A DNA stretch of 64,000 nt from Lathyrus oleraceus (taxonomy: Eukaryota > Streptophyta > Magnoliopsida > Fabales > Fabaceae). The stretch spans positions 184,096,294-184,160,293 of the forward strand of contig NC_066585.1 of NCBI RefSeq assembly GCF_024323335.1. Reading direction: 5' to 3'. The notes beneath the pieces are model-generated. The model was not told where the DNA came from and did no database searches. It saw only the letters and a program-made list of their open reading frames with translations. Positions within the stretch are counted from its first letter, which is position 1. Each line of letters begins with the position of its first letter. Positions 2,628 through 59,720 of this stretch are shown piece after piece. A program made the translations under genes and the position numbers.

Positions 2628-4820
2628 CTATGAATTCTCATGAATACAAATCCCCAATTTCCCTCTTAAACATTCAAACTGATTAGCATCCAAAGCCTTT
2701 GTAAATATGTCAGCAAATTGCCTTTCAGTAGTAACATGCTCTAGCGCTATGATTTTCTCTTCCATAAGTTCTCTAATGAAGTGATGACGAATATCAATGT
2801 GCTTTGTCCTGCTGTGCTGAATACGATTTTTGGAAATATTTATAGCATTCAGGTTGTCAGAGTACAATGTCATGGCATCTTGTGTGACATTGTATTCAGT
2901 CAACATTTGTTTCATCCAAACCAGTTGAGAGCAACTACTCCCAGCTGCTATGTATTCAGCTTGATATCTAGCACAAACACCTACAGCAAAGGCAATGTCA
3001 GGTCTGCTTGCTGTGAGATATAGCAGACTTCCCATCATGCTTCTATATAGACTTTGATCTACACTAACACCACTTTCATCTTTGGAGACCTTCAAATGTG
3101 TAATAGCAGGTATCCTTTTATGCCTTGCATTCTCCATGCCAAACTTCTTAACAATGTTCTTGGCATATTTACTTTGAGATAGAAAGATAGAACCTTCCAC
3201 CTGCCTGACTTGTAGCCCAGGGAAATAGGTCATCTCTCCAACAAGGCTCGTCTCAAACTCAGACTTCATCTGTCTAACAAAATGTTCGACCATCTGATCT
3301 GACATCCCACCAAACATAATATCATCCATATATATTTGAGCCACCATGAGTTTTCCTCCTTCATTCTTAACAAATAGGATTCTGTCAATACCTCCCTTGT
3401 TGATTTTGTCATCTTCAGGTTCAACTTGAGGAGGTTCACCCTCATTATTTTTGTCTGAGAAGTCAGTTGGGGGATCATTCTGAGATGTCTCAACATCGTC
3501 TGTGACATCAGTCTGTTGATCATCATCCACAGCATTGATAGATTCCATCATTAATTTTGTTCTGGAATTAGAGACTCTGTATGCTCTGTTGTTTGTTGAG
3601 TAGCCTAGAAAAATTCCTTCATCACTTTTGGGATTCATCTTCCTTCTTTGTTCATGATCAGTCAAGATATAACATTTACTACCAAACACATGGAAGTATT
3701 TGACTGTAGGTCTTCTCCCTTTCCAGACTTCATATAGGGTTGTAGGAGTTCCTTTCAAGGTTACTCTGTTGTAAACATAACAGGCTGTGTTCAAAGCTTT
3801 AGCCCAGAAATGGTAGGGCAATTTCTTAGCATGAATCATAGCTTTGGCTGATTCTTGAAGAGTTCTATTTTTCCTTTCCACCACACCATTTTGCTGAGGA
3901 GTAATGGGAGATGAGAGCTCATGATGAATTCCTTCTGAAGAACAGAATTTAGCAAATTGGTTGTTCCTAAATTCCTTCCCATGATCACTTCTAATTTTGA
4001 TAACTTGACTTTCCTTTTCTCTTTGAAGTTTGAGACAAAGATATTTGAAGACTTCAAAAACATCAGATTTTTCTCTTATAAAATTCATCCAGGTGTATCT
4101 GGAGAAGTCATCCACCACTAAATAAGCATAATTCTTCCCACCAAGGCTTTCCACCTGCATGGGTCCCATCAAATCCATATGGAGGAGTTCCAAAACTTTG
4201 GAAGTGGTGTCATGTCTGAGCTTCTGGTGTGACATCCTTGTCTGACATTCCCCACATACTTTTCTTTCATCAATCTTCAAGTTGGGAATTCCTCTAACAA
4301 CTTCAACAGATATAACCCTCTTCATACCTTTAAGATGCAGATGGCTCAACCTTTGATGCCATGTCTTCACTTCTTCTTCTTTGGCTAAGGTACACATTGA
4401 AGAGTAACCAGTTTCTTGAGAACTCCACATGTAACAGTTGTCTTTAGACCTGACTCCTTTCATGATCACTTCACTTTCTTTGTTAGTAATCAGACATTCA
4501 GTTTTAGTGAAGTTAACATTTAGACCTTGGTCACACAGTTGACTGATGCTTATTAGATTTGCAGTTAAGCCCTTAACAAGTAGGACACTGTCAAGATCAG
4601 GAACTCCAGGGCAATCAAGCTTACCAATCCCCTTGATTTCACCCTTTGCTCCATCATCAAAGGTTACATAGCTTGTGGCATGAGGATGAAGGCCAGTTAG
4701 TAGGTTTTTGTTTCCAGTCATGTTTCTGGAGCACCCACTATTAAAATACCAATCTTCTTTGGCTAAAACTCTGAAGGAAGTATGAGCTATTAGACTTGTA
4801 ACATTAGTCTTATGACCCAT
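2628..4820 (-). pseudogene. RE1 pol: protease, integrase and internally deleted RT/RNase H, still an open 730-codon frame
   Basis: The frame is open from the ATG at 4820 to 2628 but encodes a crippled polyprotein. The protease motif reads DWYFNSGCS near residue 26; the family has D in place of N, so the catalytic Asp is lost. The integrase zinc region (H..H then CGEC) and the D, D, E residues (HMDLMGP, IRSDHGKEF, NGVVERKNR) are present. After the acidic linker the frame jumps directly to GGIDRILFVKN, so the N-terminal half of reverse transcriptase, including its first catalytic Asp, is missing; YMDD remains. A second in-frame jump, from GVCARYQ to AEYIAAGSS, removes most of RNase H with its DADW motif. 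Both deletions keep frame. Autonomous transposition is not possible. Confidence 0.85.
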
Positions 4821-42422: not shown

Positions 42423-44041
42423 GTTGATTTCTAAACCCATTGAACATAATGACCCAACACCATCTCCCAATTTTGAATTCCCTGTATTCGAGGCGGAAGA
42501 AGATGATGTTGAAGAGATTCCTGATGAGATCACCCGGTTACTTGAGCATGAAGAGAAGATCATTCAGCCGCATCTTGAGAATCTGGAACCAGTCAACTTG
42601 GGGTCTGAGGATTGTGTTTGTGAAGTGAAGATTGGGGCACTCCTTGAAGAATCTGTCAAGAAGGGGTTGATTGAATTGCTACAAGAATATGTCGACGTCT
42701 TTGCTTGGTCATACGAAAACATGTCGGGTTTAGATACTGATATTGTGCAACATTTCCTACCTTTGAAGCCTGAGTGCGTGCCTGTGAAGCAGAAGCTCAG
42801 AAGAACTCATCCCGATATGGCAGTAAAGATCAAAGAAGAGGTTCAGAAGCAAATTGATGCGGGGTTTCTGGTGACTTCTATATATCCTCAATGGGTGGCC
42901 AATATTGTGCCCGTGCCTCAGAAAGACGGAAAAGTCCGGATGTGTGTGGACTATAGAGACTTGAATAAAGCTAGTCCAAAAGATGATTTTCCTCTACCAC
43001 ACATTGATATGTTGGTAGATAATACAGCTAAATTCAATGTCTTCTCATTTATGGATGGATTTTCCGGATATAACCAGATCAAGATGGCACCCGAGGATAT
43101 GGAGAAGACAACATTCATCACACCTTGGGGAACATTCTGTTATCAAGTGATGCCCTTTGGTTTGAAGAACGCCGGAGCCACGTATCAACGAGCTATGACC
43201 ACCTTGTTTCATGATATGATGCACAAGGAGATCGAAGTGTATGTTGACGATATGATTTCTAAGTCGAGAACAGAAGTTGAACATGTAGAGTACCTGTTGA
43301 AGCTTTTTCAGCGTTTAAGGAAGTACAAGCTTCGTCTGAATCCCAACAAGTGTACATTTGGAGTCCGTTCTGGCAAGTTATTGGGCTTCATTGTCAGCGA
43401 AAGAGGTATTGAGGTTGATCCTGCGAAGGTCAAAGCAATACAAGAGATGCCTGCGCCCAAAACTGAGAAGCAAGTCCGAGGTTTTCTTGGCCGCTTGAAT
43501 TACATTTCTAGATTCATATCCCACATGACTGCCACATGTGCGCCGATATTCAAGCTCCTCGGAAAGATCAGTCTCATGATTGGACCAAGGATTTCCAGAA
43601 AGCTTTTGATAGCATTAAAGAGTATCTGTCTGAACCTCCGATCATGTCTCCGCCCGTGGAAGGAAGACCTTTGATCATGTATTTGACTGTTCTTGAAGAC
43701 TCAATGGGTTGTGTCCTTGGTCAGCAGGATGAATCAGGAAAGAAAGAATATGCTACTTACTACCTAAGCAAGAAGTTCATTGATTGTGAGTCTCGATACT
43801 CAATGCTTGAGAAAACATGTTGTGCTTTGGCTTGGGCTGCCAAGCGCTTACGCCAGTATATGATAAATCATACGACTTGGGTGATATCCAGAATGGATCC
43901 AATCAAGTATATATTTGAGAAGCCTGCTTTAACAGGGAGGATTGCCCATTGGCAGATGTTGTTATCTAAGTATGATATTGAGTATCGAGCTTAGAAGGCT
44001 ATTAAAGATAGTATCTTGGCTGACCACTTGGCACACCAGCC
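42423..44041 (+). pseudogene. RE7 reverse transcriptase and first part of RNase H, frameshifted
   Basis: After an acidic linker, RT is well preserved: VPQKDGKVRMCVDYRDLNKA, FSFMDGFSGYNQIKM, MPFGLKNAGATYQRAM and the catalytic YVDDMISKS near 43240. A one-base loss near 43560 moves the reading to the frame of 43536-43994, which holds the thumb and RNase H start (MYLTVLEDSMGCVLGQQDES). A stop lies at 43992, and the sequence is cut at 44041 by RE8. The enzyme would copy genomic RNA into DNA; this copy is inactive. Confidence 0.9.
44037..44041 (+). repeat. Presumed RE8 target site (CAGCC)
   Basis: These are the five bases next to the RE8 LTR edge. The partner copy is outside the window, so the duplication is inferred. 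Confidence 0.5.
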
Positions 44042-46090
44042 TGTCGCAACCTGAAAAATCACAGAAAGTGAAAAAAAACAACCGGCGAGAAAGAGATGAC
44101 AGAAGAGTCGCCACCGTGTGTTATTCATCCCAAAGGAGGGAAAGGAAACGCTCGAAGTAAACTTGGAAGAAGGAAAGGAAAAGACAAGGTCTCGCAACCA
44201 AATCTTGGGTTCGGGAGTCGATTATGCAAAGGGAAGGTATTAGCACCCCTGCGCATCCGTAGTACTCTACGGGATCCACTCTTGTTGTTCTTGTCTAAAA
44301 GGTGTGGGTTTATCTAATGTACTATTTACTAAAAACGGGGTCAAAAGAAAATGACTCGCACGGATGTCGCATCCACTGTATACGTATCTCATCTGAATAT
44401 GAGACTCAGAGTCTTCGTAGCTCGGCTACCTATGAGTTAAGGGGAAGTGTGCTCGCTAAGACATCGCGTCTTATGCCTACGTATCTCATATGGAATGAGA
44501 ATTAGAGCAAGCCGTAGTTCGGCTAACTACGGGTTAAGGGTTGTGTTTTGGGGTGAACGACGCTACTACGCAATCTACCGGATGCTCGACCTTTGGAGAC
44601 TTACTCGCTTGTAGTAGAAGGACTTAACGTGTTCTTAGGAGAAGAAAAATCAATGAGTTGTTTGCGTTGTAGGAACGCTCATGCAAAAAAGGAAGTCCTA
44701 GACGAAGGAACAGTGCTACCTTAATTGACATGCAGACGAGAGACTATATGAAGTCTAGCAATCCTATGGGGGAGACGATCACACCATACAAAATAAACAT
44801 GCATAAAGTAAACACACAAAAGAAAACATTGCCTCCTATTGAGGTCTTCCAGCTAAGAAAGCGGTAAAATACGGGAAAGAGGTAAAAGTACCACACGGAT
44901 AAAGATCCGAAGTAACAGCAACTAAGGGGACAAGAAACCCCTCTCAAGCTGGTACCATCAAAGAAAGCGAGTCAGTACAGGTAATCGGAATAAACCTCCA
45001 AGGGGTATCCCACAAATAAATTGGGATACCATGCAAGCCATCTCTTTTAAGGTCATGTGAGCCCTCACAAAAACTCAACAAACAGGTTAGGAAGCAACGC
45101 ATGGATGCAATAGAAAACATGTCACAACAGAACACAAAACAGATTAGAGCAAACATAAAAAACAACTACTGTCGCGATCGTTGTTGCATCGCCTAGTGAA
45201 AGCTTAGCGAAGCTTCGCTACAGGCTCGCCTAGCGAAGATGCTAGCGAACGCCTGCGGGTTTTGGGTTCTTCATGGATAACAGTACGATCTCGGAAATCC
45301 CAAACCCTATGGTACACATTTCAGAAATTAAACAATTAAACACTCAAGGCATTGATTTACAGATTCATATACATCTAACCGTGGGCAAAACCTCGCGATA
45401 ATACCTTATACATTTAGAGATTTCAAATTGAAGGCGTAAAATAATGGGAATAAGGTAAACCTGATTGGAGAGATCGATTAAAATCGAAAGGCACGGCAGG
45501 GTTTGCAAAGCATTGTTAGGGTTTAGAGGTGAAAAAGTGTGTGAGTCCGGGTGAACCTTTCAGAGCTGTTTGGAGGCTGCTGCAGATTAGTTCGTCCCTT
45601 TTCCTTCTCTCTTTCGTTCTCTCTCTTTCTCTCCAGGGTTTTTCTCTCACTGAAACTCTAGTATTTATAACCTGATTTTGTGACCTGATGGGCTCAGATG
45701 ATGGCAGCTCAAGCCCATGACTTTCTGTCATATTCTGAAAACGCGTGCCCTTCGCCTAACGAAGGATCTGCTCGCCTAGCGAGCATGACAGTTCAGTTTG
45801 CTTTGCGAACCATGCTGCTCGCCTAGCGAGCATGACAGCTCAGAAACAGATTTTTGCTTCTTCAAAATTAGCATTATGAATGATGACTAGACCCCATTTG
45901 AACCTGTTGGAAGTAGCTCAAGTCTTTCCCTTGTGCTGATCGATCACCTGGATAAAACCCACAAAAGCGTTTTGGATGATGTTCAAGCTTCTTGGATCTG
46001 ATCCTGATTGACATGATGAAATGCAATATGAAATGCTAAATGACCTAAAAATGGATGCATGAATGAGGGGGGCAAATTTGAGGTGCTACA
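44042..46090 (-). repeat. RE8 3' LTR (2049 bp)
   Basis: In plus orientation it runs from TGTCGCAACCTG to GGTGCTACA. It matches both RE9 LTRs in reverse. A minus TATA box (TATAAATA) lies at 45662-45669. Clusters of CTCGCCTAGCGAG hairpins occur at 45740-45830 and 45190-45245. Confidence 0.93.
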
Positions 46091-46218
46091 GCTGCCCCTA
46101 TTCAATCAACTGTGAACCTGAACGGATGAAAGCAACGGCTATCAAACTTTCAAGGTAAATAGGGATTGAATACCAAAAGAACCGGAGAATTTGCACTCTG
46201 TAGGTGGCGAATCAAGGA
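46091..46218 (-). other. RE8 polypurine tract region and 3' UTR end
   Basis: The sense strand reads GATTGAATAGGGGCAGC directly before the LTR start, matching RE9 (GATTGAATATGGGCAGC). RE8 has the purer G-run. Confidence 0.7.
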
Positions 46219-46958
46219 AAGTGAGGCCATTTACCGATGACGGCTTCAAAACCGATTTGATATTTACCGATATCAAAGAAAGCAAGGCCATTTACCGATG
46301 GCGGCTTCAAAACAAATTTGATATTTATCGATATCAAAGAAAGTGAGGCCATTTACTGATGGCGGCTTCTCTGGGGAGGAAAATGATGTTTGTAAGTGAG
46401 ACAAGACCAGACATTTATCGATGACTGGGAAGGAACTCGATGTTTACCGACATCGAACAAAAATATTTATAAGTGAAACAAGACCAGACATTTACCGATG
46501 ACTGGGAGGAACTCGATGTTTACTGACATCGAACAAAGATACTTACAAATGAAACGAGACCAGACATTTACCGATGACTGGGAGGAACTCGATGTTTACC
46601 GACATCAAACAAAAATATTTATAACGAAACAAGACCAGACATTTACTGATGACTGGGAAGGAACTCGATGTTTACCGACATCGAACAAAAATATTTATAA
46701 CGAAACAAGACCAGACATTTACCGATGACTGGGAAGGAACTCGATGTTTACTGACAAGACCAGCCATTTACCGATGACTGGGAAGGAACTCGATGTTTAC
46801 CGACATCGAACAAGATATTCATAACGAAACAAGACCAGACATTTATCGATGACTGGGATGGAACTCGATGTTTACTGACAAGACCAGCCATTTACCGATG
46901 ACTGAGAAGGAACTCGATGTTTACCAACGTCGAACAAAGGTGTTTACCAACACCAAGG
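46219..46958 (-). repeat. RE8 hairpin array, LTR-proximal part, with 76/49-bp tandem units
   Basis: The plus strand shows repeated loop TTACCG with pairing flanks: TTTGATAT/ATATCAAA at 46252-46275, GCCAT/ATGGC at 46284-46301 and again (loop TTACTG) near 46348, and TCGATGT/ACATCGA several times. Between 46405 and 46930 the array becomes tandem, with 76-bp units (AAGACCAGACATTTACCGAT...) and 49-bp variants lacking the last 27 bases. RE9 cuts the array at 46959. Confidence 0.88.
46954..46958 (+). repeat. RE9 target-site duplication, left copy
   Basis: CAAGG here and CAAGG at 59328-59332 flank RE9 exactly. The joined target reads ACACCAAGGAAAGAATAC, which matches the RE9 family's own 3' UTR (reverse complement near 56763-56791), so the host is a sister element. 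Confidence 0.96.
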
Positions 46959-49013
46959 TGTAGCACCTCAAATTTGCCCCCCTCATTCATGCATACATTT
47001 TTAGGTCATTTAGCATTTCATATTGCATTTCATCATGTCAATCAGGATCAGATCCAAGAAGCTTGAACATCATCCAAGACGCTTTTGTGGGTTCTATCCA
47101 GGTGATCGATTAACACAAGGGAAAGACTTGAGTTACTTCCAACAGGTTCGAATGGGGTATATTCATCGTTCAAAACGCTAATCATGAAGAAGCAAAAATC
47201 TGCTGCTGAGCTGTCATGCTCGCTAGGCGAGCAGCATGGTTCGCTAAGCGAGCTGAACTATCATGCTCGCTAAGCGAGCAGATCCTTCGCTAGGCGAAAG
47301 GCACGCGTTTTCAGAATATGACAGAAAGTCATGGGCTTGAGCTGCCCTCATCTGAGCCCACTAGGTCACAAAATCAGGTTATAAATACTAGACTTTCAGT
47401 GAGAGAAAAACCCTGGAGAGAAAGAGAGAGAACGAAAGAGAGAAGGAAAGGGACGAACTAATCTGCAGCAACCTCCAGACAGCTCTGAAAGGTTCACCCG
47501 GACTCACACACTTTTTCACCTCCAAACCCTAACAATGCTTTGCAAACCCAGCCGTACCTTTCGATTTTAATCGATCTCTCCAATCAGGTTTGCCTTATTC
47601 CCATTATTTTACGCCTTCAATTTGAAATCTCTAAATGTATGAGGTATTATCGCGAGGTTTTGCCCACAGTTAGATGTATATGAATCTGTAAATCAATGCC
47701 TTGAGTGTTTAATCGTTTAATTTCTGAAATGTGTACCATAGGGTTTGGTGTTTCGGAGATCGTACTGTTATCCATGAAGAACCCAAAACCCGCAGGCGTT
47801 CGCTAGCATCTTCGCTAGGCGAGCCTGCAGCAAAGCTTCGCTAAGCTTTCGCTAGGCGATGCAGCAGCGATCGCGACAGTAGTTGTTTTTTCTGTTTGCT
47901 CTAATCTGTTTTGTGTTCTATTGTGACATGTTTTCTATTGCATCCATTTGTTGCTTCCTAACCTGTTTGTTGAGTTTTTGTGAGGGCTCGCATGACCTTA
48001 AAAGAGATGGCTTGCGTGGTATCCCACTTTATTTGTGGGATACCCCTTGGAGGTTTATTCCGATTACCTGTACTGACTCGCTTTCTTTGATGGTGATAGC
48101 TTGAGGGATCTCTGGGTTTCTCATTCCCCTTAGTTGTTGTTACTTCGGATCTTTATCCGTGTGGTACTTTTACCTCTTTCCCGTATTTTACCGCTTTCTT
48201 AGCTGCAAGACCACAATAGGAGGCAATGTTTTCTTTTGTGTGTTTACTTTATGCATGTTTATTTTGTATGGTGTGATCGTCTCCCCCATAGGATTGCTAG
48301 ACTTTGTACAGTCTCTCGCCTGCATGTCAATTAAGGTAGCATTGTTCCTTCGTCTAGGACTTCCTTTTTTGCATGAGCATTCCTAAAAACGCAAACAAAC
48401 TCATTGATTTTTATTCTCCTAAGAACACGTTAACTCCTTCTACTACAGGCGAGTAAGTCTCCAAAGGTCGAGCATCCGGTAGATTACGTAGTAACGTCGT
48501 TCACCCCAGAACACAACCCTTAACCCGTAGTTAGCCGAACTACGGTTTGCTCTGATTCTCATTCCAGATGAGATACGTAGGCATGAGACGCGATGTCTTA
48601 CCGAGCACACTAACCCCTAACCCATAGGTAGCCGAGCTACGAAGACTCTGATTCTCATATTCAGATGAGATACTTATGTAGTGGATGCGACATCCGTGCG
48701 AGTCATTTTCTTTTGACCCCTCTTTTAGTAAATAGTACATTAGATAAACCCACACCCTTTAGACAAGAACAACAAGAGTGGATCCCGTAGAGTACTACGG
48801 ATGCGTAGGGGTGTTAATACCTTCCCTTCGCATAATTGACTCCCGAACCCAAGATTTGGTTGCGAGACCTTGTCTTTTCCTTTCCTTCTTCCAGGTTTAC
48901 TTCGAGCGTTTCCTTTCCCTCCTTTGGGATGAATAACGCACGGTGGCGACTCTTCTGTCATCTCTTTTTTGCCGGTTGTGTTTTCGCTTTCTGTTTTTTT
49001 TCAGGTTGCGACA
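46959..49013 (+). repeat. RE9 5' LTR (2055 bp)
   Basis: The ends are TGTAGCACCTC and GGTTGCGACA. A TATA box TATAAATA lies at 47380-47387. Hairpins around CGCTARGCG cluster upstream of the TATA (47218-47302) and again near 47801-47865. TGGCGACTC at 48944 is a primer-site-like sequence 72 bp before the true one. The short ORFs at 47883-49204 recur in all LTR copies but carry no recognisable domain, and I do not call them genes. Confidence 0.95.
47380..47387 (+). promoter_or_regulatory. RE9 5' LTR TATA box
   Basis: TATAAATA lies about 420 bases into the LTR, followed by a purine-rich GAGAGAAAGAGAGAG stretch. The same box is in the RE8 LTR; the RE9 3' LTR has TATAGATA instead (57696-57703). Confidence 0.7.
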
Positions 49014-49033: not shown

Positions 49034-50029
49034 CCCAGTTTCCCTAAGCGAGTCCCTCCTAGCTTTTGTAGGTTTCTTGTTGGTTGGGTGTTTATTTCGG
49101 TTGTACAATTATTTATTTACTTGCTTGCATTCATGTACATATGTCTGTTGTATCTGTTGGCTTTGTTTTGGTTTGTTTGTTTGTTGGGATGTGATGTTCT
49201 ATGAGAGATAAGCCCATTACCCAGGCTTGAGTGTACACACAGGTTTTAGAGTGGATAGTCATGAGGCTTGCGTGGCGTGTTGCTACGTTAAGTCGTTCAT
49301 GAAAACCCACATCCAGACGAGGTTTCTTTTGGATATATTATGTCCTATGGGTGTTCCATAACGGCAGATGTTCCTCTAGAAATCGTCGACTTTGGTGACC
49401 ATTTCCCGAGAACTCAATCGAGGCCTCTCCTCCGAGACGCGTTTATGTTAGCTCTGGTGGGCGCATTCTCGCTGCTCAACCCGAGGACCCCGAGGATGGG
49501 AACTTGCCATTAGGATATCCTGTTGAGGGGAGTCACTGGAGGTCTTTTATCCCGTAATAATGCCAAACCTTCAGTGGTAAACGTATTATTCTCGACCGAA
49601 GGGCCGAAGTTGACAAACTTCTGTTCTTAGAACCTACCAGTGAAGGGCGGGCTAAATTCAGGAAACCTTAACCTCCAACCAACCCGGTTTTCTGGAGCAG
49701 AGCTTTGATCTTGTATTATATTCCTTAGTGGGTTTCTCTTCAGACAGTGCAACCCGACAGATGTTCAAGCGGATATAGCAACCTTGATTTCCATGTCACT
49801 GCATTGCATCACAACATGTTTATTTTCAAAAAATATAGTGCATATAAAAGAAAAAAGTTAACCCGCATATGCATATCAGAGAAAAAATAGCATACGCATC
49901 ATGCACATATCATTCATGCATCATTACAGGTGTTCTTGAGGAGGATTTCTCATTCCGGTTCCCGTTTCAGGCAGGATTGTTGAGTATCGTCCGCATCGTT
50001 ACGCAACAAGGCAGAATCGACAGAGGATC
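49034..50029 (+). other. RE9 5' leader
   Basis: No ORF1 and no convincing gene. GCATCATTACAG|GTG at 49917-49930 looks like a splice acceptor context. The matching leader of RE8 is 63536-64000 on the minus strand. Confidence 0.6.
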
Positions 50030-53000
50030 ATGGATCAAGTTCTAGCAGAACTAGCAGAGATGAGGACCAACATGGCCCAGTTCATGAGTATGATGCAAGG
50101 GGTAGTGCAAGGGCCAGAGGAACTCCGAGCCTTGGTCCAGAGACAAGAAACTGTGATTCCCCCTGTCGGTCAGAGTCCGCCAGAGGAGACCCCTATCGAT
50201 GACGCTGTTGTTACCAACCCTGTCAACAACCATGCCAATAGTGACGAATTGCGTGGTATCAGAATCAATGGACAACCCATCATTACAGAGGTTGCTAATG
50301 CTCGAGCGGCACGTGCTCCGGTTCACCATCCTTCTCATTTGGTTGACAAGCAAGAAGATATGTTCACCATTCCCAATGATGATGATGAATTTGGAAAAGT
50401 GGAAGAGAGAGATAGAAAGGTCGACGCCCTTGCTGAAAAGATTCGCGCCATGGAGTGCCAGAATTCGTTGGGTTTTGATGTTTCTAATATGGGTTTAGTT
50501 GATGGGTTGAGGATCCCATACAAGTTCAAAGCGCCATCTTTCGACAAATACAATGGCACTTCTTGTCCCCGAACTCATGTGCAGGCCTATTACCGGAAGA
50601 TATCCGCTTATACTGATGATGAAAAAATGTGGATGTACTTTTTCCAAGACAACTTGTCTGGAGCATCTTTGGATTGGTACATGGACTTGAGAAAAGAATC
50701 TGTCAGAAGCTGGAGAGAGTTAGGTGAAGCTTTTCTGAGGCAGTACAAGAATAACATAGACATGGCTCCGAGCAGAACCCAGTTGTAGGGTTTGTTTCAA
50801 AAGACCGGTGAGAGTTTCAAGGAATACGCCCAAAGGTGGCGTGAACTAGCTGCGAGAGTACAACCTCCGATGTTGGAGAGGGAATTGACTGATATGTTCA
50901 TTGGAACCCTGCAAGGTGTATTCATGGATCGTATGGGAAGTTTCCCATTTGGTAGTTTTCCGGATGTTGTGATTTACGGAGAAAGAACTTAAAGTCTTAT
51001 CAAAGCGGGAAAAATCCAAGACCCTAGTTCTTCAAGTTCTTCAGGTGCTAAGAAACCATTCTCAGGGGCACCCAGAAGGAGAGAGGGTGAGACAAATGCT
51101 ATATATAATCAGAGAAATGGAAATAGAGGACAACAATACCGTCAAGTTGCTGCTGTGACTATTCCAGCAACCCAACCTCAACAACCACAAAGAGGACAAC
51201 CACAACAACAACAACAACGCCAATTCCAACCAAGACAAAGAATGCCAGATCGACATTTTGATCCGCCGCCTATGACTTATGCTGAATTACTCCCTGAACT
51301 GCTCAGGTTAAAGTTTATTGAACTTCGCACTATGGCTCCATTAACAAGGATTCCTGCTGGTTATGATGCTAATGTCCGTTGTGATTTTCATTCTGGTGCA
51401 CCAGGGCACCACATCGAGAATTATCGGGCTTTTCACCATAAAGTTCAAGATTTGATTGACGCCAAGACGATTAACTTTTCTCCTACTCCGAATGTGGTGA
51501 ATAATCCTATACCTCAGCACGGAAGGCCCAGGGTGAACAGTGTGGAAGATGGGGAAAATTTGAACTTGGTAGTCAATATTGATGACATTCAGACTTCGTT
51601 GTTTGTAGTGAAGGAACGTCTGCTTAGAGGGGAAGTATTCCCGGGATGTGATAAGAATTGTTCAGATTGTGGTAATCATGAAAACGGGTGTGTGAAATTG
51701 AAAGAAGGTATCCAGGAATTGATAAATGAAGGTTGTTTACAGTTTGATCGAATAGTGAAAGACCGTGAAGAGGTATCGACCGTTACCATTTACTTTACGC
51801 CGTCAGAAGGTTCTGTACGTGCTCTAAGTGCGCCTGTGACTATTGGTACTCATGTGACCGTAGCTGCGCCCGTGACCATATCTGCTTCGGTGACTGTTGG
51901 TGTTCCCGCGACTATTAATGCTCTAGTAACTATCAATACTCCTACTACCATTGCTGCTTCTAGTGGAAGACTCTATGAGAGTAGTAGAGCAATTCCGTGG
52001 CAATATGACAATGCTTCTTCTCCAGTGACGATTGGTTCGTCAAATAAGACTCCAGTAACAGTTGGTTCGGCTGCGGATAACGTGGGAGGACCCGGAGGAT
52101 TTATGAGAAGTGGTCGTTTGTTTGCGCCTCAGGTTCCGAATGATAACAATGCTGAGGCTCTTGCTAGAACAAAAGGAAAACAAGTTGTAATTGAAGAAGA
52201 ACCAGTGCGAAAGGAAGTGCCCGAGAATTCTTTTGAGAAGGACGTGGAGGAATTTATGAGAATTATCAAGAAGAGTGATTACAAGATCGTGGATCAGTTG
52301 AACCAGATACCGTCAAAAATCTCTATTCTCTCTCTGTTGATGTGTTCCGTGGCACACCGTAACGCCCTGTTGAAAATGTTGAATATGGCTTATGTGCCTC
52401 AAGAGATTTCTGTTAACCAGCTTGAAGGTGTTATTGCAAATGTTAACACGAGACATGGTTTGGGATTCACGGAGCTAGACTTGACACCTGAGGGTCGCAA
52501 TCATAATAGAGCTCTGCATATCAGGATGGAATGCAAAGGCGCCGTTTTGTCGCATGTTTTGGTTGATACCGGTTCTTCTTTGAATGTGCTGCCCAAAAAG
52601 GCTCTGAGTAAGCTTGATGCCGAAGGGGTTGTTCTCACACCAAGTGATCTTGTTGTCCGTGCTTTTGATGGATCCAAGCGATCAGTTTGTGGTGAAGTCA
52701 TGTTGCCTGTGAAGATCGGCCCGGAAGTATTTAATATTGTCTTCTATGTGATGGATATTCAACCAGCATATAGTTGTCTGTTGGGGCGTCCCTGGATACA
52801 TGGAGTCGGATCAGTTTCTTCGACTCTTCACCAAAAGCTAAAATATGTGTGGGATGGTCGAGTTGTGACCGTGTGTGGCGAAGAGGACATCTTTGTGAGC
52901 CATTTATCCTCCTTCAAATATGTGGAGATGGATGGCGAAATTCATGAAACTCTATGTCAAGCTTTTGAGACTGTCAGTATTGAGAAGGTGGATTTTGTTG

Positions 53001-53344
53001 AACAGAAGAAACCAGGTACCTCGATTGCGTCCTATAAACAAGCTCTGGAGGTCATTCATTCAGGTGACGCGGAAGGCTGGGGCAAGATGATTGATGTGCC
53101 CGTAAAAGAAGACATGTTTGGCATTGGTTATCAGCCTTTTCAATCATCAGAGCAGGGTGTCCAGGATCAGAAAGGGCCGTGTACTTTCACTAGTGCTGGA
53201 TTGATGAATCACTGGGATGTCTTTGCAACAGACAATGAAGATGGTGACAGTGATTGTGATATGGTGCGCCCGTGTGCTCCAGGGGAGAAGATCAATAACT
53301 GGACTGCTGAAGAAATAGTCCAAGTTACTCTTCAGACAGAGTAA
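50030..53344 (+). pseudogene. RE9 gag-protease, one frame with two stop codons
   Basis: The frame runs from MDQVLAELAEMRTNMAQ to the stop at 53342, about 1104 codons, with in-frame stops at 50786 (TAG) and 50990 (TAA). The gag core includes YFFQDNLSGASLDWYMDL and FKEYAQRWRELAARVQPPM. A Gln/Pro-rich stretch (51160-51240) precedes the zinc-like motif CDFHSGAPGHHIENY, whose last Cys is now Tyr. A Thr/Val-Thr-Ile repeat (51830-51960) forms a linker. Protease has VLVDTGSSLNVLPKK (Asp at about 52565) and LLGRPWIHGVGSV. The polyprotein would form the particle and cleave itself; this copy cannot be translated whole. Confidence 0.9.
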
Positions 53345-53889: not shown

Positions 53890-54826
53890 ACCTACTGCTT
53901 CTAATGGATATCGCTTCACCCTAGTCACGATTGATTACTTTACCAAGTGGGTGGAAGCAGCTTCCTATGCCAATGTTACCAGACAAGTGGTTGCTCAATT
54001 CATTTAGAAAGAAATTATCTGTTGTTATGGGGTTCCTGAGAGAATCATTGCTGATAATGGTTCGAATCTCAATAACAAGATGATGAAAGAGCTTTGCAAA
54101 GACTTTAAGATCGAACACCACAATTCTTCTCCTTGCAGACCAAAGATGAATGGTGTTGTAGAGGCGGCAAACAAGAACATTAAGAAGATTGTGCAGAAAA
54201 GGGTTGTGACGTACAAGGATTGGCATGAGATGTTGCCTTTCGCTTTGCATGGGTATCGTACCTCAGTGCGTACGTCAACCGGGGCAACTCCGTTTTCACT
54301 TGTGTATGGCATGGAGGCAGTCTTTCCAGTAGAAGTTGAAATCCCTTCTTTGAGGGTGATGATGGATGTAAAATTTGACGAGGCTGAGTGGGTTCAATCC
54401 AGGTTTGATGAGTTAAATTTAATTGAGGAAAAGAGATTAGCAGCTGTGTGCCATGGACAACTATATCAGAGAAGGATGAAGAAGGCCTTTGATCAGAAAG
54501 TGCGTCCTCGAAGCTATCAGATAGGTGACTTAGTTATGAAGAGGATCCTTCCTCCCGGTACAGATAACAGGGGCAAGTGGACTCCGAATTACAAATGTTC
54601 ATATGTTGTTAAAAAGGTCTTTTCTGGTGGAGCCTTGTTGCTTACAACTATGGATGGTGAAGATTTTCCGTCTCCCGTGAATTCAAATGTAGTAAAAAAA
54701 AATACTGCGCATAAATCGACCCGCTGGACAAAAAAAAAGAATAGTCCAGGCAAAAAAGGGCATCCCCGCGAACCAAGAGAAAAAGAAAAGAAAAAGGTTC
54801 GGGCAAAAGTTAGGGATAAAGAATAA
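53834..54826 (+). pseudogene. RE9 integrase core and C-terminus, damaged
   Basis: The frame starts at MNSPWPFAMWGINMIGK. The family has Asp where this copy has Asn (GIN), so the first residue of the D,D,E triad is lost. A TAG stop lies at 54005. The second Asp (IADNGSNLN) and Glu (MNGVVEAANKNIKK) are intact. The C-terminal part (VRPRSYQIGDLVMKRILPPG) and a Lys-rich tail (KKKNSPGKKGHPREPREKEK) run to 54826. In an active element this enzyme inserts the cDNA; this copy could not act by itself. Confidence 0.88.
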
Positions 54827-55544: not shown

Positions 55545-56705
55545 ATTTGTTTCCCCAGCATGGTCGAGAGGTTGGTGTTTTCCCAAAAAGTGACTCCCCA
55601 GTTGAGTTGGTTTCTCTACCGTTCCGAGAATGTCAGATCAGTGTGTATCCTCAGCAGAATTGTTGTATATCCTCAGCGGAGTTGACAGTGCCAGACTGTA
55701 TCTTCCCAGCAGAAGCGGCTGCTCCTCAGAGTTCGATGCCAGATCGATGATCTCGACGCCAGATCCATGGTCTCTTTCCTTGAAGCAGAATCTCGGTACC
55801 GTATCGGTGTTTGCTTCCCCTGCTGAGTCGTCTCTCTCGCAGACTATGGTTGCCAGAGCCACCGTCGCTTTCCTCAACAGCAAGCTTCCAGTGCCATTCT
55901 CTCCCCAGTCAGAGTCTCGGTATTATGTTATTGCCTGAACACCGCGTGGCCGGTCATTTCCCCACATAGTTCATTGGGCTGTGTATCTCCAACAGCATTG
56001 CCTGGGTCAAGAAGAGTGTAATCATTTCCCCGGCAGGAGTTCTTGCCTCGGCTTGGCATTCTCCCCAGCAGAGTTCCTTGCCTCAACTTGTCGTTATTTC
56101 TAACCTAGCATTTCGCATCCCTTCATGTAGAATCATATTGCATTGCATCCTCTCAGTATGGAGCATTACGCCATAGAAAACTCAAACATATGCATACATG
56201 CATTAAAACCAGATTGGATCTTATCCCCAGCAGAGACGGATCATTTTTCAACATCAGTGTAGCACATTTGCAGCAGTTGCTCTTAGTAACAGTCATAACC
56301 GATAATCCCAATGAGATTTATTTTCTCACCAGTCCGTGAAAGGAAAGCTTGATTCTCTTCCGAGTTAGTCCCCGGCAAGTGTCTGCCTTATTTTGACATA
56401 CATGAATATCATCCTGGAGATACCGGTAAGTGTCGTGTTGATCCTCGTAAATGTCTATGATTTTCTTTGATGTCGGCGAACATCATCTTTAGATGTTGGT
56501 AAACGTCGAATCCCAATCGTTGACCATCAGTAAATGGCATGTCTCTCATGATGTCTACAAAAAATCATTCTGTCAACACCCGTGGGTGTCCTTTCCTTTT
56601 TTGGTGTCGGTGAACATCATCCTTCGATGTCGGTAAACTTCGAATCCCAATCGTTGACCATCGGTAAATGGTTTTGTCGTCTAAGATTCCCCAGCAAATT
56701 CGATA
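55545..56705 (+). repeat. RE9 3' UTR array of primer-site-complementary sequences
   Basis: Degenerate copies of TCCCCAGCAGAGTCGCCA, the reverse complement of the RE9 primer site, recur in sense orientation. The best are CTCCCCAGCAGAGTTCC near 56063, ATCCCCAGCAGAGACGG near 56224, CTCCCCAGTCAGAGTC near 55901, TTCCCCTGCTGAGTCG near 55815, TTCCCCAGCATGGTCG near 55552, ATTCCCCAGCAAATTCG near 56686 and ATCCTCAGCGGAGTTG near 55670. RE8 carries the same array in reverse (59400-60550). ORFs here are by-products of the repeats. Confidence 0.8.
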
Positions 56706-57135
56706 TTCGTAAATATCGAATACTTCATTTTTGCCATCGGTAAATGGTTTCGTTTCATAAATGTATTCTTTCCTTGGTGTCGGTAAACACCTTTGTTCGA
56801 TGTCGGTAAACATCGAGTTCCTTCCCAATCATCGGTAAATGGCTGGTCTTGTCAGTAAACATCGAGTTCCTTCCCAGTCATCGATAAATGGCTGGTCTTG
56901 TCAATAAACATCGAGTTCCTTCCCAGTCATCGGTAAATGTCTGGTCTTGTTTCGTTATGAATATCTTGTTCGATGTCGGTAAACATCGAGTTCCATCCCA
57001 GTCATCGGTAAATGTCTGGTCTCGTTTCACTTGTAAACATCTTTTTCCCCCAGTGAAGCCGCCATCGGTAAATGGCCTTGCTTTCTTTGATATCGGTAAA
57101 TATCAAATTTGTTTTGAAGCCGCCATCGGTAAATG
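56419..57135 (+). repeat. RE9 3' UTR hairpin array: constant CGGTAA loop, varied paired stems
   Basis: At least ten hairpins have a six-base loop, usually CGGTAA. Perfect stems include ATTCGATAT/ATATCGAAT (56698-56721, loop TCGTAA), TTTGATAT/ATATCAAA (57086-57107), TCGATGT/ACATCGA (56797-56816 and near 56970), TGATGT/ACATCA (56468-56485), GGTGT/ACACC (56776-56791), GCCAT/ATGGC (57061-57076) and ACCAT/ATGGT (56657-56672). CCAGTCAT/ATGTCTGG (56998-57019) has one T-T mismatch. Units of about 49-76 bp are partly tandem. No protein is encoded. Confidence 0.9.
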
Positions 57136-57253
57136 GACTCGCTTTCCTTGATTCGTCACCTACAGAGTGCAAATTCTCCGGTTCTTTTGGTATTCAATCC
57201 CTATTTACCTTGAAAGTCTGATAGTCGTTGCTTTCATCCGTTCAGGTTCACAA

Positions 57254-57272
57254 TTGATTGAATATGGGCAGC
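57254..57272 (+). other. RE9 polypurine tract region
   Basis: TTGATTGAATATGGGCAGC directly precedes the 3' LTR. Compared with RE8 (AATAGGGGCAGC) a T interrupts the purine run. Confidence 0.65.
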
Positions 57273-59327
57273 TGTAGCACCTCAAATTTGCCCCCCTCAT
57301 TCATGCATCCATTTTTAGGTCATTTAGCATTTCATATTGCATTTCATCATGTCAATCAGGATCAGATCCAAGAAGCTTGAACATCATCCAAGACGCTTTT
57401 GTGGGTTCTATCCAGGTGATCGATCAACACAAGGGAAAGACTTGAGTTACTTCCAACAGGTTCGAATGGGGTTTATTCATCGTTCAGAACGCTAATCTTG
57501 AAGAAGCAAAAATCTGCTGCTGAGTTGTCATGCTGACTAGGCGAGCAGCATGGTTCGCTAAGCGAGCTGAACTGTCATGCTCGCTAAGCGAGATGATCCT
57601 TCGCTAGGCGAAGGGCACGCGTTTTCAGAATATGACAGAAAGTCATGGGCTTGAGCTTCCCTCATCTGAGCCCACCAGGTCACAAAATCAGGTTATAGAT
57701 ACTAGAGTTTTAGTGAGAGAAAAACCCTGGAGAGAAAGAGAGAGAACGAAAGAGAGAAGGAAAGGGACGAACTAATCTACAGCAGCCTCCAGACAGCTCT
57801 GAAAGGTTCACCCGGACTCACACACTTTTTCACCTCCAAACCCTAACAATGCTTTGCAAACCCAGCCGTGCCTTTCGATTTTAATCGATCTCTCCAATCA
57901 GGTTTGCCTTATTCCCATTATTTTACGCCTTCAATTTGAAATCTCTAAATGTATGAGGTATTATCGCGAGGTTTTGCCCACGGTTAGATGTATATGAATC
58001 TGTAAATCAATGCCTTGAGTGTTTAATCGTTTAATTTCTGAAATGTGTACCATAGGGTTTGGGGTTTCGGAGATCGTACTGTTATCCATGAAGAACCCAA
58101 AACCCGCAGGCGTTCGCTAGCATCTTCGCTAGGCGAGCCTGCAGCGAAGCTTCGCTAAGCTTTCGCTAGGCGATGCAGCAGCGTTCGCGATAGTAGTTGT
58201 TTTTTCTGTTTGCTCTAATCTATTTTGTATTCTGTTGTGACATGTTTTCTATTGCATCCATGCGTTGCTTCCTAACCTGTTTGTTGAGTTTTTGTGAGGG
58301 CTCACATGACCTTAAAAGAGATGGCTTGCATGGTATCCCACTTTATTTGTGGGATACCCCGTGGAGGTTAATTCCGATTACCAGTACTGACTAGCTTTCT
58401 TTTAAGGTGATAGCTTGAGGGATCTCTGGGTTTCTCATTCCCCTTAGTTGCTGTTACTTCAGATCTTTATCCGTGTGGAAATTTTACCCCTTTCCCATAT
58501 TTTACCGCTTTCTTAGCTGGAAGACCTCAATAGGAGGCAATGTTTTCTTTTGTGTGTTTACTTTATGCATGTTTATTTTGCATGGTGTGATCGTCTCCCC
58601 CATAGGATTGCTAGACTTCGTATAGTCTCTCGTCAGCATGTCAATTAAGGTAGCATTATTCCTTCGTCTAGGACTTCCTTTTTTGCATGAGCATTCCTAA
58701 AAACGCAAACAAACTCATTGATTTTTCTTCTCCTAAGAACACGTTAACTCCTTCTACTACAGGTGAGTAAGTCTCCAAAGGTCGAGCATCCGGTAGATTG
58801 CGTAGTAACGTCGTTCACCCCAGAACACAACCCTTAACCCGTAGTTAGCCGAACTACGGCTTGCTCTGATTCTCATTCCAGATGAGATACGTAGGCATGA
58901 GACGCGATGGCTTACCGAGCACACTAACCCCTAACCCATAGGTAGCCGAGCTACGAAGACTCTGATTCTCATATTTAGATGAGATACGTATGCAGTGGAT
59001 GCGACATCCGTGCGAGTCATTTTCTTTTGACCCCTCTTTTAGTAAATAGTACATTAGATAAACCCACACCCTTTAGACAAGAACAACAAGAGTCGATCCC
59101 GTAGAGTACTACGGATGCGTAGGGGTGCTAATACCTTCCCTTCGCATAATCGACTCCCGAACCCAAGATTTGGTTGCGAGACCTTGTCTTTTCCTTTCCT
59201 TCTTCCAGGTTTACTTCGGGCGTTTCCTTTCCTTCCTTTGGGATGAATAACACACGGTGGCGACTCTTCTGTCATCTCTTTTTCGCCGGTTGTTTTTTTG
59301 CTTTCTGTTTTTTTTCAGGTTTCGACA
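57273..59327 (+). repeat. RE9 3' LTR (2055 bp)
   Basis: It has the same length as the 5' LTR, from TGTAGCACCTC to GGTTTCGACA. A perfect 7-bp hairpin stem CCTTCGC/GCGAAGG lies near 57598. TGGCGACTC at 59258 is 69 bases before the end, as in the 5' LTR. Confidence 0.95.
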
Positions 59328-59332
59328 CAAGG
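59328..59332 (+). repeat. RE9 target-site duplication, right copy
   Basis: CAAGG, identical to 46954-46958. Confidence 0.96.
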
Positions 59333-59720
59333 AAAGAATACATTTATGAAACGAAACCATTTACCGATGGCGAGAATGAAGTATTCGATATTTACGGATA
59401 TCGAATCTGCTGGGGAATCTTAGACGACAAAACCATTACCCGATGGTTAACAAGCGGCTGATGTTTACCGACATCGAACAATGATGTTTACCGACACCAA
59501 AAAGGGAAAGGACACCCACGGGTGTTGACAGAACGATTTTTTGTAGACATCATGAGAGACATGCCATTTACTGATGGCCAACGATTGGAATTCGACGTTT
59601 ACCGACATCGAAAGATGATGTTTACCGACATCAAAGAAAAGCATAGACATTTACGGGGATCAACACGACACTTACCGGTATCGCCAGGATGATATTCACG
59701 TATGTCAAAATAAGGCAGAC
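59333..59720 (-). repeat. RE8 hairpin array, second part after RE9
   Basis: The plus strand shows ATTCGATAT/ATATCGAAT around TTACGG (59382-59405), CCAT/ATGG around TTACCG near 59355, TGATGT/ACATCA around TTACCG near 59618, and GCCAT/ATGGC around TTACTG near 59564. This continues the array at 46219-46958 that RE9 split. Confidence 0.85.

Follow-up and report, generated by a model that had tools for sequence, protein, structure and literature searches.

Arrays of constant-loop, free-stem hairpins in the 3' UTR of pea LTR retroelements, a candidate protein-read address on genomic RNA

Retroelement 3' UTR repeats and protein-read stem-loops

Retroelements of the Ogre/Tat lineage are known to harbor hypervariable tandem repeats, from which satellites are derived, between the coding region and the 3' LTR (PMC3305785, PMC7004042), and family-specific tandem arrays have also been described in the 3' UTR of the Retand lineage (PMC11963269). 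In the parts of these works considered here, the repeats are treated as tandem repeats and as a source of satellites (PMC3305785, PMC7004042, PMC11963269), and were recorded as polymorphic, with functions, if any, unknown (PMC3305785). The arrays analyzed here are alike in place and likewise family-specific. The published descriptions of both lineages deal, in the passages covered, with monomers, copy numbers and origin, and neither a constant loop nor stem covariation appears in those passages; the terms hairpin, palindrom and secondary structure have no occurrence in the main text of PMC7004042, nor do hairpin, inverted and stem in that of PMC11963269. Among the matches listed from the literature, mainly open-licence, no description of constant-loop hairpins in these 3' UTRs was found; priority is unproven.

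Stem-loops that combine a constant loop with a free stem and are read by a protein are found in mRNA UTRs, as shown by the iron-responsive element, the Smaug recognition element and the Roquin decay elements. These belong to cellular mRNAs and occur in one or few copies, whereas the pea arrays hold up to 35 sites and their loop differs per family. Known retroviral packaging stem-loops are small in number and sit close to the 5' end, in contrast to the pea array, which is long and near the 3' end, and whose link to Gag is putative. In MMTV such genomic-RNA sequences, one with a purine loop among them, are bound by Gag (PMC8096270), a candidate likeness to the pea arrays. A further parallel is the stem-loop in the 3' tail of LINEs, a structure at the RNA 3' end that the LINE's own protein reads (PMC4176376), although there it is the tail structure of a LINE and in pea it is an array in an LTR element. 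Protein-read stem-loops as such are known; an exchangeable array this large in a retrotransposon was not found previously, among the matches listed.

A hairpin array beside the 3' LTR of a nested retroelement

The window, that is the whole stretch of 64,000 nucleotides analyzed here (Lathyrus oleraceus, contig NC_066585.1), contains two elements in opposite orientation, whose parts are collected in Table 1. The LTR pair of element 2, flanked on either side by a copy of CAAGG, aligns over 2,058 bp, and the order of its parts is LTR, Gag/protease frames, integrase, hairpin array, purine-rich stretch and 3' LTR. A tandem-repeat region separates the coding part from the 3' LTR, as in Ogre-like elements, and, from layout and size, we take the host element to be an Ogre-like Ty3/gypsy element. 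Concerning gene content, gag, weak protease and integrase matches were obtained, and most of the reverse transcriptase was not found in element 2; since only its first part, ahead of the integrase, could be located, the element looks non-autonomous from its sequence. Element 1 carries the second array of the window, which lies in two pieces because element 2 inserted within it. The target CAAGG directly adjoins a GTGT-TGGTAA-ACAC hairpin of element 1. The loop complement TTACCG occurs twice per element 2 LTR on the sense strand (- strand CGGTAA at 48188, 48598, 58502 and 58912). At the purine-rich stretch other copies of the element have TTGAATAGGGGCAG in place of ATTGAATATGGGCAGC, and the junction of purine stretch and LTR, TTGAATAGGGGCAGNTGTA, is found 27,952 times in the genome (control, 0).

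Table 1. Features of the two window elements and of the array in the related element
Feature	Position	Strand	Remark
5' LTR of element 2	46959..49013	+	96.6% identical to 3' LTR
3' LTR of element 2	57273..59327	+	
Polypurine-tract-like stretch adjoining 3' LTR, ATTGAATATGGGCAGC	57257..57272	+	name inferred from position
Target-site duplication CAAGG, left copy	46954..46958		read from sequence
Target-site duplication CAAGG, right copy	59328..59332		read from sequence
gag part of element 2, stop-to-stop frame	49940..50788	+	Retrotrans_gag PF03732, E 1.1e-5
Gag C-terminal part and aspartyl protease, stop-to-stop frame	50993..53344	+	PF13650, sub-threshold at E 0.00029
Integrase part of element 2	54008..54826	+	PFV integrase, E 5.2e-6; rve PF00665, sub-threshold at E 0.0011
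CGGTAA-hexaloop hairpin array of element 2, varying self-complementary stems	56419..57135	+	
3' part of element 1 hairpin array, same design	46215..46958	-	cut by element 2 insertion
5' part of element 1 hairpin array	59340..59695	-	
3' LTR of element 1	44036..46093	-	5' LTR just past window, 96.2% identical
RTYCAG hairpin array of related element	L165 4591-5450		

The two strands of the window together have 43 copies of the CGGTAA hexamer, with 10.25 expected and a maximum of 18 in 100 shuffles; 13 of these copies fall at 56424-57132 on the + strand. The site list of this + array has 21 rows, admitting loops identical to CGGTAA or differing from it at one position, and loops differing at two positions where a stem is present, and its stems comprise ATTCGATAT, TTTGATAT, GATGT, GGTGT, GCCAT and ACCAT among others, each with its own complement. 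A Watson-Crick stem of at least four pairs closes 9 of the 18 sites having at most one loop mismatch, the others forming two to three pairs only or requiring G.U, and in the CCAGTCAT/ATGTCTGG form, which recurs, T opposes T at the fourth pair. Eight hexaloops have a closing stem of five or more Watson-Crick pairs, whereas 300 shuffles average 0.73 such loops and never give more than 3. For loop sizes of 3, 4, 5, 7, 9 and 10 bases the shuffle maximum is not exceeded, and the eight-base loops (5, shuffle maximum 4) are mostly CGGTAA hairpins counted one pair farther out. Upon swapping arms between the 18 sites, the 73 pairs observed compare with a random mean of 37.2 and a maximum of 67, no trial out of 20,000 equalling them. 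Shuffles and arm swaps together rule out chance pairing as the source of the hairpins. The sequence-only reading had described this stretch as an array of CGGTAA-loop hairpins with differing yet pairing stems in a retroelement 3' UTR; the arm swaps confirm the array, the comparison with shuffled sequence agrees, and the placement immediately 5' of the LTR is borne out by the element layout.

The same design across the genome and with a second loop

The exact form ATCGGTAAAT is present 97,599 times in the 3.795 Gb genome, as compared to 6,549 for the reversed control. Ten arrays were collected, namely those of the two window elements and eight stretches from the start of contig 1 (L154-L161), leaving out L162 and L163 with one isolated site each; they hold 226 exact-loop sites, 222 once isolated sites are dropped. 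The inner five pairs of the 222 sites yield 998 Watson-Crick, 49 G.U, 7 A.C and 56 other combinations, and those of the 133 distinct sites 590, 38, 7 and 30, respectively. Corrected mutual information places all six inner stem pairs within the top 16 column pairs, two of them at the top. With 154 distinct sites, and in a control that retains the relatedness of sites, 90.3% of inner pairs form in register versus 21.1-42.4% when the arms are slid by one to three bases, the covariation score being 0.632 in register and at most 0.187 slid. A search blind to the loop retrieved 133 stems with at least six Watson-Crick pairs (loops of 3-12 bases), of which 102 enclose a hexaloop and 76 exactly CGGTAA. 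The earlier claims that the stems covary with pairing kept, and that the loop is the constant part, hold, the former beyond the arm-swap, slid-register and shuffle controls and the latter through the share of perfect stems that carry CGGTAA.

Alignment from the LTR junction was possible for five related arrays, L156 being left aside as a sixth since the junction motif was not found in it. The alignment displays seven pairs with two Watson-Crick types, some of which could be unit exchange instead of point change, and at one aligned pair T-A, T.G and C-G are all present. A single array has as many as 35 listed sites, one-mismatch loops with stems counted. Plain slippage is insufficient as a source of the arrays, since the stems differ yet still pair. 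In L160 (1220-1650) a 114-base unit with three different hairpins is found in four tandem copies, a recent amplification which shows that duplication copies whole sets of different stems.

No additional clear array emerged from twenty 10-kb stretches sampled across the genome, where weak detector matches came from 5 of the 20 and one match from the shuffled control. The 31 stretches fetched from the viral collection have at most one exact-loop hairpin of at least four pairs per strand, and the same applies to the prokaryote collection, among the matches listed, with the exception of one bacterial repeat. This repeat, on the - strand of a Verrucomicrobiaceae MAG (L099, ~2800-3040), is a tandem repeat with five exact CGGTAA-loop hairpins on stems like TCGATGT/ACATCGG; it was found by pattern and is probably unrelated. 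Searching with the integrase returned no viral relative. Rfam returned no match up to E 1 for window positions 56300-57300, and none at the gathering score for five related stretches.

A related element just past the window (L164-L165; LTRs 96.2% identical) carries, at the equivalent place, a hairpin array whose hexaloop is RTYCAG, on stems such as TGGC/GCCA, CGAT/ATCG, CGGT/ACCG, CGAC/GTCG and CAGT/ACTG. Its 42 sites have 159 of 168 inner cells paired, a value equalled by none of 20,000 arm swaps, and over 81 distinct sites of this family 96.0% of the cells pair versus 3.4-48.5% slid. The excess of G.U (19) over A.C (9) is weaker than in the CGGTAA family. The integrase of the RTYCAG element is 81% identical to that of element 2 (80.3% in one comparison), the values for five further CGGTAA elements being 86.8-91.2%. 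In all seven loci examined an integrase lies upstream and the flank downstream of the array is recognisably alike, and the match continues up to the LTR start in six of them, ending just short of it in L156. The two families thus share the place and the design of the array, but not its loop. The loop-and-stem rule proposed earlier thus stands as a design, whereas its loop word is not general, the related family using another hexaloop. Over 139 residues of the Gag C-terminal region the RTYCAG element and element 2 are 52.5% identical, against 80.3% for the integrase, and this lower Gag identity is in line with a co-evolving reader, as far as sequence comparison can indicate. Two more tandem arrays were seen near retroelements past the window, one of AGATG-GACTTA-CATCT hairpins with a uniform stem (L164 4748-5110) and one of CTACC/GGTAG type hairpins with larger loops (L166 2657-2742); their hairpins are too few or too uniform to judge.

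A consecutive sample consisted of the first 13 TTGAATAGGGGCAGNTGTA junctions of contig 1, comprising L154, L155 and L161, which had originally been picked via their CGGTAA sites, and ten 611-base pieces. The former three have CGGTAA arrays. L193 and L195 show exact CGGTAA hairpins on the right strand ~1-2 kb upstream of the junction (one site and twelve sites); a CGTT tetraloop rule tried in these two was rejected, the arm swap not being significant (4,202 and 5,263 of 20,000). Four of the 13 junctions have RTYCAG arrays, whose 85 sites have 325 paired cells out of 340 (mean after swapping 267, equalled in 0 of 20,000 swaps), with 17 G.U and 7 A.C cells. L198 is a weaker RTYCAG relative, with 61 of 100 cells paired, a swapped mean of 53 and 40 of 20,000 swaps. 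Finally, L194, L199 and L201 have TGAG/TGCG tetraloop hairpins with long stems, as seen by eye. The hexaloop rule therefore applies at least in part to 10 of the 13 junctions, one by a single upstream site and one by a weaker test, and another design, a tetraloop judged by eye, to the remaining 3. A separate hairpin, TACCA-TTTATTT-TGGTA, lies downstream of the arrays in 7 of the 10 pieces (among L192, L194 and L196-L201), and its L201 version, TACCG-TTTATTT-CGGTA, is a matched double change.

Strand of pairing and candidate readers of the loops

Which strand pairs can be approached through the wobble cells, since a symmetric DNA process would give equal G.U and A.C. G.U exceeds A.C in all ten arrays (pooled 49 vs 7), and at the fourth pair of one stem the genome-wide counts are 14,438 G-C, 11,661 G.U and 160 A.C; these cells are copies and not independent events, and the genome-wide count covers one stem. 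Two stem types, GCCAT/ATGGT and GGTGT/ACATC, supply 27 of the G.U total of 49. If each distinct stem type with a single odd pair is counted once, the figures are 9 G.U vs 2 A.C (p 0.065), another mismatch being present in 10 more types, and the second stem pair of the ten arrays runs opposite (A.C 3, G.U 0). The small number of A.C pairs cannot be put down to G to A change being rare, as shown by the loop variants on good stems, where G2A (17) and G3A (14) amount to 31 over two G positions versus 4 for C1T at one C position. The G.U excess indicates that it is the sense strand that pairs. Folding of the window array in the sense direction has a z of only -2.0, and antisense z is more negative in all five arrays folded, the antisense raw energy being lower in only three of the five; two control stretches range from -1.1 to 0.2. 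On balance the sequence data point to selection acting on sense RNA, or on plus-strand single-stranded DNA. The initial suggestion of a structure in RNA or in extruded single-stranded DNA is thereby narrowed, RNA and plus-strand single-stranded DNA being retained and the double-stranded cruciform being dropped. Recognition through the loop, and the roles in packaging, dimerisation, priming or stability that were suggested with it, are candidate functions. We consider it very probable that the arrays are selected sense-strand hairpin arrays.

The explanation we propose is that the array forms RNA hairpins in the 3' UTR of the genomic RNA of a Ty3/gypsy (Ogre-like) element, each consisting of a constant six-base loop on a stem of ~4-9 pairs whose sequence would be free provided that pairing holds. 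The loops may be docking sites for a putative protein that binds many of them at once, most likely the element's own Gag or nucleocapsid, and the array as a whole would act as a family-specific address for recognition, packaging or sorting of the genomic RNA, an address that copies lacking a full reverse transcriptase, e.g. element 2, would need. For this complete reading, a selected sense hairpin array read as a multivalent family-specific protein tag, we see an even balance of chances, judging from sequence patterns. Gag or nucleocapsid is favoured as reader because the loops at an equivalent site differ between two families that share a nucleus, and because an apparently non-autonomous copy retains the array; by analogy Gag is a plausible candidate, falling somewhat short of probable.

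The main rival to Gag or nucleocapsid, although unlikely in our view, is a host RNA-binding protein that reads the loops, the array then serving RNA export, stability, translation control or silencing escape. Iron-responsive elements and decay elements act in mRNAs through host RNA-binding proteins, and a constant hexaloop on free stems in many copies in a 3' UTR fits such a reader equally well; the occurrence of unrelated loops at one position in two families is better, if not decisively, accommodated by a co-evolving element protein. It is improbable that no structural selection is involved and that the pairing comes from tandem duplication combined with template switches that correct quasi-palindromes in the course of reverse transcription. 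The arrays are indeed tandem repeats, with periods of 23-124 bases in the window, and strand transfers and recombination are invoked in published views, as far as the passages covered go (PMC7004042), but correction yields perfect pairs with no preference for G.U over A.C, contrary to the counts above, and leaves a constant loop on changing stems unexplained. Pairing of the loops with a UUACCG partner RNA, as kissing or tethering for dimerisation or circularisation, we regard as very improbable: the TTACCG copies on the sense strand of the element 2 LTRs could offer partners, but CGGUAA is not self-complementary. Least probable is a DNA-level hairpin of the arms, single-stranded or extruded, serving e.g. 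as integration target or recombination point, for while the antisense z values, the insertion of element 2 directly beside an element 1 hairpin and a reported weak preference of LTR elements for palindromes (PMC6911290, in the part covered, where the Ogre row of the table is 0.64, not significant) speak for it, a double-stranded cruciform would use both strands alike and give G.U equal to A.C, against the counts, only plus-strand cDNA remaining compatible.

Returning to the protein-read address, a rule of constant loop and free stem makes the 3' UTR repeats an RNA element that can be tested and that has numerous natural variants within one genome, and two families with different loops at one position lead to a simple prediction, cognate loop binding. 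The rule would account for something being preserved where sequence conservation fails, and it is relevant to how these elements, together with non-autonomous copies of them, attain high copy number. More tentatively, and with more doubt than confidence on our side, the 3' UTR repeats may be exchangeable bar codes, with up to some 30 docking sites bearing a family-specific loop and with a co-evolving element protein, by which the RNAs of different families would be kept apart and non-autonomous copies recognised. If true, satellite DNA grown from such 3' UTR repeats would represent fossil bar codes.
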